A stretch of 64,000 bases of DNA from Rhodococcus sp. HM1 (GTDB taxonomy: Bacteria; Actinomycetota; Actinomycetes; Mycobacteriales; Mycobacteriaceae). The translations under genes were made by a program, and so were the position numbers. How positions within the stretch are numbered: position 1 is the first letter of the stretch; each line of letters begins with the position of its first letter. The notes beneath the pieces were generated by a model. The model ran no database searches, was not told where the DNA came from, and worked only from the letters and a program-made list of their open reading frames with translations. The stretch is from the NCBI RefSeq assembly GCF_023218075.1, contig NZ_JALPTB010000003.1:124001-188000 (forward strand). Reading direction: 5' to 3'. Positions 20,817-43,240 of the stretch are shown piece after piece.

Positions 20817-20850
20817 GCGCCTGTCGGTGCCGTAGGGCACAGTGCGCCGC

Positions 20851-21498
20851 ATGTTGCACGTCTTGCTGGATCTCGTGCTGCCGGTGGATTGCGGCGGCTG
20901 CGGCCGGCCCGGCGTCCGATGGTGCCGTCACTGCGCCCGCGACCTCGCCGATGCGCCCGCGACCGTACGGCCGCGTGTCGATCCGGGTGTTCCCGTCTGG
21001 GCGCTCGGGTCGTACCGGGGTGCCCACCGGCGCGCGGTGATCGCCGCGAAGGAGCAGGGTCGTCGCGACCTCGCGGAGCCGCTGGGGGTGGCACTGGGGG
21101 CGGCGATCGTGCGGCTGCGCCGGTGGGGTGAGCTTCCGGCCGGGCCGTTGGGCGTGGTGCCCGCGCCGACCCGGGCGCGGGCGGCGCGAGCCCGGGGCGG
21201 CGACCCGGTCACGCGGGCCGTGCGCGCCGCTGCGGCGCACGATCGCGCGTTGCGTGTGATGCCGATCCTCGAGACCGCTCGGGGGGTCCGGGACTCCGTG
21301 GGACTGTCCGCCGCGCAGCGGCACCGGAACCTCGCCGGACGGGTGCGGCTGCGCCGGGGAAGCGGCGTGCCGCGCGGGTTCCCGGTGCTCGTCGTGGACG
21401 ACGTGACGACCACCGGCACGACCGCGGCGGAGTCCGTGCGAGTGCTCACGGCAGCCGGCTTCTGTCCACGGGGAGTGCTTGTGATTGCTGCCGCGTAA
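20851..21498 (+). CDS. ComF-family phosphoribosyltransferase-like protein
   Basis: A 215-residue double-zinc-ribbon phosphoribosyltransferase homologue (Rv3242c-like). The N-terminal zinc finger is CGGCGRPGVRWCRHC (about residues 15-29). The C-terminal PRT domain has the PRPP loop VLVVDDVTTTGTTAAE (about 178-193), and ACR-type AQRHRNLAGR. In competent bacteria ComF assists DNA uptake; no competence genes are present here and the role in actinobacteria is unknown. A GTG at 20842 is in frame; ATG 20851 fits homologues better. It probably ends the mtrAB-lpqB operon. Confidence 0.88.
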   Translation: MLHVLLDLVLPVDCGGCGRPGVRWCRHCARDLADAPATVRPRVDPGVPVWALGSYRGAHRRAVIAAKEQGRRDLAEPLGVALGAAIVRLRRWGELPAGPLGVVPAPTRARAARARGGDPVTRAVRAAAAHDRALRVMPILETARGVRDSVGLSAAQRHRNLAGRVRLRRGSGVPRGFPVLVVDDVTTTGTTAAESVRVLTAAGFCPRGVLVIAAA

Positions 21499-21520
21499 GT
21501 GTGCGCGAGTGAAATTCAGC

Positions 21521-21544
21521 GGAACGGTGGCACTCGCGGAGGTT
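21521..21544 (+). promoter_or_regulatory. SigH/SigR-type promoter candidate for hpf
   Basis: GGAAC (21521-21525) and GTT (21542-21544) are separated by 16 bp, matching the -35 and -10 core of promoters read by SigH-type stress sigma factors. A housekeeping -10 candidate TACCGT (21551-21556) follows. Either would place the start of transcription upstream of the structured leader. Confidence 0.4.
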
Positions 21545-21596
21545 ACGTACTACCGTCGCCCTCAGACCCGGAAAACACTGGTAGACGGGTGGAAAC

Positions 21597-21688
21597 GTTC
21601 GATCCGCCGGTTCCGGGCGGAGCGCTGATGCGCTCATCGAACATGCCGGTGCGCGGGCTGCACCGGCCGTACTCGGGAGGTACGAGTG
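21597..21688 (+). ncRNA. Structured 5' leader of hpf (three-way junction, hairpin and RBS hairpin)
   Basis: An outer helix GTTCGAT (21597-21603)/ATCGAAC (21636-21642) encloses two hairpins: CCGCC/GGCGG (21604-21608, 21616-21620) and AGCGC/GCGCT (21621-21625, 21630-21634) with a TGAT loop. A third hairpin GCCGGTGC/GCACCGGC (21645-21652, 21660-21667) follows, then ACTCG/CGAGT (21671-21675, 21683-21687), whose loop holds the GGAGG ribosome site and whose 3' arm includes part of the GTG start. Almost no base is left unpaired between elements. I predict a cis-acting RNA controlling translation of hpf; conserved RNAs before raiA/hpf genes are known in actinobacteria, but I cannot confirm a match. 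Confidence 0.6.
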
Positions 21689-22351
21689 ACGACCCCTTCG
21701 AAGTCCAAGGTTTCCGCTGCAGGTCTCGATGGCGAAGCCGCCGGCCCCAAGGCTGACATCGTCGTCAAGGGACGCAACGTCGAGGTTCCGGACCACTTCC
21801 GGATCTACGTGTCCGAGAAACTCGCCCGATTGGAGCGATTCGATCCGACCATTTTCCTGTTCGATGTCGAACTGCAGCACGAGCGCAACCGCCGTCAGAT
21901 GAAGAGTTGTCAGCGCGTCGAGATCACCGCCCGGGGCAAGGGCCCGGTCGTCCGTGCCGAGGCGTCCGCCGACAGCTTCTACGCGGCCTTCGAGTCGGTT
22001 ACCGACAAACTCGAATCCCGTCTGCGGCGTACCAAGGAGCGTCGCAAGGTCTCCTACGGTGACAAGACTCCCGTTTCCGTTGCCGCCGCCACTGCGGCGC
22101 TCGCTCAGGACGATTCGCTCGGCATCTCGCGGGATCTGGCGCAGGAATTCGAAGCGGAAGACAAGTCCGGTCCCGGCCGGATCGTCCGGACGAAGGAGCA
22201 CAAGGCCGAGCCGATGACCGTCGACGACGCCCTGTACGAGATGGAACTGGTCGGCCACGACTTCTACCTGTTCCACGACAAGGAAACGGACAGGCCGTCG
22301 GTCGTCTACCGTCGGCACGCGTTCGACTACGGCCTGATCAGCCTGGTCTGA
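21686..22351 (+). CDS. hpf: Ribosome hibernation-promoting factor, long form
   Basis: Binds 30S subunits and drives formation of inactive 100S or protected ribosomes in stationary phase or stress. The 221-residue protein has an N-terminal S30AE domain ([23 protein letters not shown], core [12 protein letters not shown], through about residue 125), a variable linker and the C-terminal dimerization domain ([20 protein letters not shown] and [13 protein letters not shown]). GTG 21686 with GGGAGG at 21676-21680. Corresponds to Rv3241c. The leader is unusually structured (see adjoining feature). Confidence 0.94.
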
Positions 22352-42152: not shown

Positions 42153-42178
42153 GGAACAACTCGCCCGGACGCGTTGTT
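42153..42178 (+). promoter_or_regulatory. SigH-type autoregulatory promoter of sigH
   Basis: GGAACA (42153-42158) is followed after 17 bp by GTT (42176-42178; a second GTT at 42173). This matches the core recognised by SigH/SigR itself and would give a leader of about 130 nt before the GTG at 42318. Confidence 0.6.
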
Positions 42179-42221
42179 GATCCGGGGTGGCCGCCCCCGG
42201 TCGGGGGACGACCGTGAACGA

Positions 42222-42243
42222 CGAACAGTGATCGAACAGTGAT
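42222..42243 (+). repeat. 11-bp tandem repeat in the sigH leader
   Basis: CGAACAGTGAT occurs twice without a gap (42222-42232 and 42233-42243), between the SigH-type promoter and the gene. Confidence 0.6.
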
Positions 42244-42317
42244 CGGAGTACCGCGTGCCTGTGCTGTGCCCACCGCGGCCGGTAGCCTTCACGGATACGG
42301 CAAGTGAAGGGATCGGT

Positions 42318-42962
42318 GTGGTCGAAGAGTCAGGTGCGGAGCTGGCCGAACGGTTCGAGCGTGACGCGCTGCCGATGCTGGACCAGCTCTACGGCGCGGC
42401 CCTGCGGATGACCCGCAACCCGTCGGACGCGGAGGATCTGGTCCAGGAGACGTTCATCAAGGCGTTCTCGGCGTTCGCGTCGTTCAAGGAAGGCACCAAC
42501 CTCAAGGCGTGGTTGTACCGGATCCTGACGAACACCTACATCAACTCGTACCGCAAGAAGCAGCGTCAACCGGCGCAGTATCCGACGGACGAGATCACCG
42601 ACTGGCAGCTCGCCGCGACCGCCGAACACATGTCCACCGGTCTGCGGTCGGCCGAGGTCGAGGCCCTCGACGCGCTGCCGGACGACGCGATCAAGCAGGC
42701 GCTGCAGGAACTTCCCGAGGAGTTCCGGATGGCTGTGTACTACGCCGACGTCGAAGGATTCCCCTACAAGGAGATCGCCGAGATCATGGGCACGCCCATC
42801 GGCACGGTGATGTCGCGCCTGCATCGCGGACGCAAGCAGCTGCGCGGCCTGCTCGCCGACGTGGCGCGTGAACGGGGATTCAACCGGGACGGCGCGGTCG
42901 ACGCCGCCGTCGCCGCGGCAGCAGAAACGAAGACCGCGAACGAGAAGGGGGGAGCTCGGTGA
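42318..42962 (+). CDS. sigH: Redox-stress ECF sigma factor SigH (SigR)
   Basis: A 214-residue ECF sigma factor controlling the thiol-oxidative and heat stress response (thioredoxins, sigB/sigE, proteases). Region 2 is [30 protein letters not shown] and [24 protein letters not shown] (cores [20 protein letters not shown]); region 4 is [45 protein letters not shown] (core [11 protein letters not shown]). GTG 42318 with AAGGGA 7 nt upstream; an in-frame GTG at 42255 would give a 21-residue extension like the long SigR isoform. The stop overlaps rshA. Confidence 0.95.
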
Positions 42963-43240
42963 GCGAGCCGACCGAATTCGAACCGATCGACTGCTCCGCG
43001 GTGATCGCGGACGTGTACCTGCTGCTCGACTCCGAGTGCGACGAGACGTCCCGCGCGCGGCTGGAGCATCACCTGCACGAGTGCGGCCCGTGCCTCGAGG
43101 CGTACGGCATCGAGGAGAAGATCAAATCGTTGCTCAGCCGCAAGTGCGGGGGCGAGCACGCTCCCGAAGGGCTGCGGGAACGCCTGATGATCGAGATCCG
43201 CCGGAACGTCGTGGTGAAGCGCACCGAGACGGAGGGCTGA
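42959..43240 (+). CDS. rshA: Zinc-binding anti-sigma factor RshA (RsrA)
   Basis: A 93-residue ZAS-family anti-sigma factor that holds SigH and releases it on disulfide formation. The redox core is His38-x3-Cys42-x2-Cys45 ([10 protein letters not shown]) with Cys12 and Cys27 in the N-terminal part; a further Cys is in SRKCGGEH. The GTG start overlaps the sigH TGA, so the pair is made together. Followed by a strong hairpin. Confidence 0.94.

Follow-up and report, generated by a model that had tools for sequence, protein, structure and literature searches.

A probable conserved structured leader RNA upstream of hpf in the Rhodococcus/Nocardia branch of the Mycobacteriaceae

The window analysed here, a stretch of 64,000 nucleotides from Rhodococcus sp. 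HM1 (contig NZ_JALPTB010000003.1), carries a long-form hpf gene whose GTG start codon (21686) is separated by 187 bases, promoter region included, from the upstream open reading frame at 20842-21498; counted from the predicted transcript start (21564), the leader of hpf is approximately 120 nt long. Proteins of the S30AE family bind ribosomes, and HPF decides whether ribosomes go into storage. A protein search of the genome of this strain using HPF gave no further match. At the nucleotide level a 57-nt stretch elsewhere in the same genome (G000:C110:155234-155290; L002) matches part of the coding sequence of hpf with 82% identity (E 1.5e-4). The upstream reading frame had no Pfam match at 1e-3, and from its phosphoribosyltransferase-like motif VVDDVTTTG we take its product to be probably ComF-like. 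The window also encodes a SigH-like ECF sigma factor, as the initial annotation had stated, directly followed by a 93-aa open reading frame with an HxxxCxxC motif (42959-43240). The features referred to below are:

21521-21544, + strand, ECF (SigH-like) promoter pair GGAAC-N16-GTT with a 16-nt spacer, identified by sequence
21528-21556, + strand, conserved promoter resembling the SigA type: TGGCAC at 21528-21533 (or GTGGCA 1 base upstream), a 17-nt spacer and TACCGT at 21551-21556
21567-21617, + strand, arm P1: 21567-21572 (CCCGGA) with 21612-21617 (UCCGGG), mean pairing probability 0.992
21597-21642, + strand, competing closing helix of the earlier fold: 21597-21603 with 21636-21642, mean pairing probability 0.004
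21620-21635, + strand, hairpin P2 (GAGCGC UGAU GCGCUC), probability 0.995, at the position of H2 in other genera
21636-21644, + strand, linker joining P2 to H3, without pairs when the full leader is folded
21645-21667, + strand, hairpin H3, 9 bp, probability 0.954
21670-21688, + strand, Shine-Dalgarno (SD) hairpin: 21670-21675 with 21683-21688, probability 0.597
21675-21680, + strand, Shine-Dalgarno sequence GGGAGG; GGAGG is invariant in 56 rows (alignment A1)
21686-22351, + strand, hpf, long form with both S30AE domains (Pfam PF02482, 3.2e-23; PF16321, 4.6e-25)
42255-42962, + strand, SigH-like ECF sigma factor gene (Pfam Sigma70_r2, 7.9e-19; Sigma70_r4_2, 1.7e-18)

SigH-type promoters have GGAAC/T and GTT approximately 16 to 20 nt apart, and a pair of this kind is present at 21521-21544 as originally described; the window has two exact copies of GGAAC-N16-GTT when both strands are counted. 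A GGAAC...GTT site also lies approximately 100 nt 5' of the SigH-like gene (42153-42255) and would fit self-control of the latter. Among 96 unique hpf promoters the complete pair was found in 17, 15 of them from the genus of the window, and it is lacking in the remaining 79; SigH as the sole or general hpf promoter was therefore rejected, while control by SigH is possible in the window's genus as an addition to the conserved promoter. The latter, a TGGC plus TAnCGT block with constant spacing, was present in 160 of 168 loci (96 unique), where the search pattern itself required TGGC and CTA, and is also carried by mycobacterial hpf loci; judged from its sequence this widespread promoter looks like one of the SigA type. 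In addition, the motif GAAC just 5' of the SigA-type -35 element (21515-21533 in the window) is kept letter by letter in 84, 95, 93 and 80 of the 96 promoters. Since GAAC is retained in most promoters, even those without the ECF -10 GTT, a regulator or a different sigma factor may recognise it.

The leader was folded (RNAfold) from two strand starts, 21597, as chosen in the initial annotation, and the predicted transcript start (21564-21688). Starting at 21597, the best fold is the structure that had been described, a three-way junction followed by two hairpins, at -51.2 kcal/mol (z -2.14, reached by 6 of 200 shuffles). With the start at 21564 the best fold has -58.7 kcal/mol (z -2.68, reached by 3 of 200 shuffles), a modest excess over shuffled sequences, and the three-way junction is gone. 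In its place arm P1 encloses inner pairings including a hairpin, H1, around 21586-21601. P1 was missing from the earlier fold because the start at 21597 cut it off. Forcing the closing helix of the junction on the full leader costs 3.6 kcal/mol (-55.1 vs -58.7), and we rejected the junction as the main fold given that P1 (0.992) replaces the closing helix (0.004), which is paired in 61% of the cells in 12 rows of the genus and 49% in 56 rows. The claim that nearly every base fits one structure thus holds for the stretch chosen: the pairings can form from 21597, but 21597 is unlikely as a 5' end, and for the strand from 21564 the claim fails.

The two hairpins closest to hpf fared differently. 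The hairpin at 21645-21667 is conserved, with nine rather than the eight base pairs first counted; folded alone, H3 had a z of -2.42, which 3 of 200 shuffles reached. The final hairpin, which presents GGAGG in its loop and has the GTG start codon in its stem, can form (z -1.88 when folded alone; 13 of 200 shuffles as good) but is not conserved, as in 56 rows 70% of its cells are paired and no pair shows a change on both sides.

To compare relatives we gathered leaders from 80 named hpf loci plus further genomes. A total of 156 loci gave a leader, 105 of them unique (88 outside and 17 inside the window's genus), a set from which loci without the SD/start pattern, e.g. those of mycobacteria, were excluded. 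Alignment A3 comprised 39 selected rows, and A4 100 of the 105 unique leaders (94 distinct; L044, L080, L124, L165 and L182 were left out). Within the genus, P1 had 94% and H3 97% of the cells paired (12 rows), and the best fold contained P1 in 12 of the 17 unique leaders and was without it in the other five. Across 56 rows 85% of H3 was paired and seven of its nine pairs had changed on both sides. In 39 rows from outside the genus H2, which is replaced by a different hairpin (P2) in the window's genus, was 91% paired and H3 80%, and both-sided changes were seen in 12 of 17 pairs (five of eight in H2); the covariation score of H2/H3 was reached by none of 500 shuffles, and sliding the structure along this alignment lowered the pairing to 31-45%. 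The fitted alignment of 100 rows gave both-sided changes in 14 of 17 pairs.

Independently of any chosen structure, we scored every possible helix on alignments built from sequence alone. A pairing of at least 80% was reached by 15 of 5,151 six-bp helices in the 88 outside leaders; ten of the 15 are registers of H2 and H3, and it is these that score highest for compensatory change. When the outside leaders were aligned in a second way, 13 of 5,050 helices passed, and the ten were again among them. In the 17 leaders of the genus the 80% level was attained by 95 of 6,328 five-bp helices. H3, P1 and H1 rank near the top of these, with two unrelated helices above them, and the earlier closing helix is absent among the best 25 of the 95. 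At the level of single pairs, an R-scape-like test with a custom-written tree-based null (not R-scape itself) gave no pair at E < 0.05 in either the 88 outside or the 17 genus rows. By raw covariation score the H3 pairs 74-90, 75-89 and 73-91 rank 1, 2 and 8 of 6,216, intermixed at the top with unpaired columns that mark clades. The compensatory changes lie mostly between clades and therefore represent few independent events; the raw signal is there nonetheless. The predicted compensatory changes were thus borne out for H2 and H3 as hairpins, and not for single pairs against the tree-based null. Taken together, we consider it very probable that hpf of the Rhodococcus/Nocardia branch has a conserved structured leader RNA, for which H3 and the hairpin before it provide the firmest structural evidence from the sequence comparison.

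From its 5' end the common architecture starts with an arm or hairpin, followed by H2 (replaced by P2 in the window's genus), a brief linker, H3 and the ribosome-binding site. In an alignment fitted to the model, which is the source of these counts, the loops of H2 and H3 vary between 1 and 33 nt and between 2 and 24 nt, respectively (100 leaders), and 97 of the 100 have GGAGG at 8-9 nt from the end of H3. The variable loops suggest a constraint at the RNA level, and the constant spacing a role at the ribosome-binding site.

Two covariance models were used to follow the distribution of the leader, R1, trained without rows of the window's genus, and R2, which includes the genus; both fit P2 as H2. 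R1 detects the leader of the window with 43.4 bits (E 7.5e-9), a score to which the near-invariant SD and start codon contribute, as they do for model scores in general. It matches the 18 genomes of the window's genus and, in the family as a whole, 129 of 301 genomes from 12 of 31 genera, each of them just once. Seventy of the 129 matching loci were checked (the 30 best and 40 picked for diversity), and hpf lies downstream of the match in all 70. R2 matched 5 of 246 genomes of the class, three within the family and two weak ones outside it (E 4.2e-4 and 8.4e-4), which had no adjoining hpf and were taken as chance. A search for plasmid copies of the leader gave no match. This distribution of R1 and R2 matches argues that the leader belongs to one branch of the family, with a putative diverged form in mycobacteria that both models miss.

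Of 34 mycobacterial loci, 27 passed a promoter-to-start pattern and 18 the pattern for the helix scan. In these 18 leaders helices similar to H2 and H3 take most of the top places and one competing helix ranks fourth. The mycobacterial hpf leaders (L068, L072, L183-L212) are approximately 200 nt long and share a conserved element, GGUAGGAGGUGAG...UCGACACCU, a long way upstream. Many have no strong Shine-Dalgarno before ATG and carry AGAGAAACGAGUUG there, so that the translation start site deserves attention. The 5' UTR transcript of Mycobacterium tuberculosis Rv3241c is listed as sRNA candidate 1542, 201 nt, with Northern bands of 280 and 60 and a sigA -10 (PMC3526491), and the Rv3241c product is the hpf homologue RafS (PMC9386245). 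Both that transcript and the leader studied here belong to the 5' UTR of an hpf homologue with a sigA-like -10, and the promoter block and similar helices are seen in other mycobacterial leaders; they differ in that the transcript is 201 nt, with no structure described in the accessible part of the report (PMC3526491), and in that neither R1 nor R2 matches the Mycobacterium genomes listed.

Rfam 15 had no family at threshold anywhere in the window, and at the leader only sX9 and atpB appeared at E up to 10 (1.8 and 2.3); the same search of 19 relatives gave nothing at the leader. Specifically, the raiA motif (RF03072) had no match in the window (threshold at least 101.3 bits) and none to E 10 in 21450-21800. 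It is present in 75 of 198 sampled genomes of the phylum and in none of the 17 genomes listed for the class of the window, the genome of this strain included. To the question of the initial annotation, whether the leader is one of the RNA motifs already reported before raiA/hpf, the answer is negative for the raiA motif and for the Rfam 15 library. The raiA motif RNA occurs near comFC (74%) and raiA (66%) genes (PMC11706538); here hpf downstream is certain, and the reading frame upstream is the one without a Pfam match at 1e-3. As for the raiA motif/ModT (RF03072), a leader RNA stands directly before a gene of the same protein family, but the model of that motif has 209 positions, compared with 187 bases, promoter included, between the reading frames in the window. 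With its S30AE product, a ribosome-binding protein, and a conserved structured leader, hpf agrees in these two traits with genes that have a leader of the ribosomal-protein type. Such leaders (PMC7247131), like the one predicted here, are structured, limited to one lineage and precede a gene for a ribosome-binding protein; the accessible main text of that survey does not mention hpf, raiA, hibernation or S30AE. A word search of the literature, mostly outside subscription journals, found no published description of this hpf leader.

The leader is likely a post-transcriptional control element, and control would be at translation. As to how, we tentatively propose, at somewhat below even chance, that it acts in cis as an operator. 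It would be transcribed from the conserved SigA-type promoter, with the ECF site as an addition in the window's genus, and a factor reporting the state of the ribosomes (HPF itself, a ribosomal protein or another RNA-binding protein) would bind H2-linker-H3. On H3, 8-9 nt before GGAGG, this factor would either hinder or promote 30S subunit loading, and HPF output would thereby be set after transcription. It is the position of H3 near GGAGG that points to a protein-bound operator. In Streptomyces, HPF was up in ribosome fractions (3.0 and 7.6) with an RNA-seq value of 1.0, as given in the accessible part of the report (PMC7157823); by analogy this fits post-transcriptional control, but may reflect binding only.

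The initial annotation had proposed RNA-gated translation through the SD. As a general switch by sequestration this is not supported, since upstream complementarity to the SD is hardly beyond that of dinucleotide-shuffled leaders (mean z -0.25 for the 17 genus leaders and -0.38 for the 88 outside) and accessibility is likewise near the shuffled values; single species might still use such a switch. A two-state version, in which an upstream strand, e.g. CUUCC in the P1 arm, alternates between the SD and the arm in a riboswitch-like manner, was kept as a rival because five of the 17 genus leaders (L005, L009, L012, L090 and L091) lack P1 in their best fold and have the SD paired to a segment further upstream instead. 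The fraction of leaders with a complementarity z below -1, 26% outside the genus, speaks for it as well, yet this fraction is 6% within the genus, the means are just those given above, the window's leader holds P1 at 0.99 and the SD hairpin is not conserved outside the genus; we regard such a switch as improbable. Two further ideas were dropped by eye: kissing between the H2 loop and the SD, as the loop is not C-rich in Nocardia, and an upstream reading frame starting in GGAGGTG, as frames and lengths vary between clades.

Alternatively the leader could be passive, its hairpins shielding the 5' region of the mRNA from ribonucleases and keeping the ribosome-binding site free, with no regulation. 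Strong stems, variable loops and the fixed distance from H3 to the SD would suit this, as would a mean SD openness slightly above shuffled (0.45 vs 0.34 in the genus; 0.35 vs 0.31 outside). Openness exceeds the shuffled mean in just 53% and 55% of the leaders, however, and is thus not clearly selected, and the conservation of position and architecture across genera would seem to exceed the needs of a generic stem; we consider a purely passive role somewhat less likely than the operator. Far less probable still is that the leader mainly provides a free small RNA acting elsewhere, as raiA-motif RNA does: the similar gene neighbourhood of that motif (PMC11706538) and the M. tuberculosis Northern bands (PMC3526491) agree with it, but the conserved unit reaches into the SD at a fixed distance and the leader precedes hpf in every one of the 70 loci examined.

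Beyond the cis-operator proposal, an extended SD-like GGAGGUG is present in the 5' hairpin, far upstream of the start codon, in 63 of the 88 outside leaders and in none of the 17 from the genus. It is a long shot that the leaders form a new class of leader RNA for hibernation factors, with related forms in Mycobacterium, Nocardia and Rhodococcus, which senses the state of the ribosomes via GGAGGUG; if true, the 5' GGAGGUG could catch idle 30S subunits via the 3' end of 16S rRNA and so tie HPF output to free ribosomes. The part of the literature reached by our search held no account of how HPF levels are set post-transcriptionally in actinobacteria. With a compact, defined leader before hpf in many relatives of Rhodococcus and Nocardia, and a similar one in mycobacteria, post-transcriptional control of HPF becomes testable by experiment.
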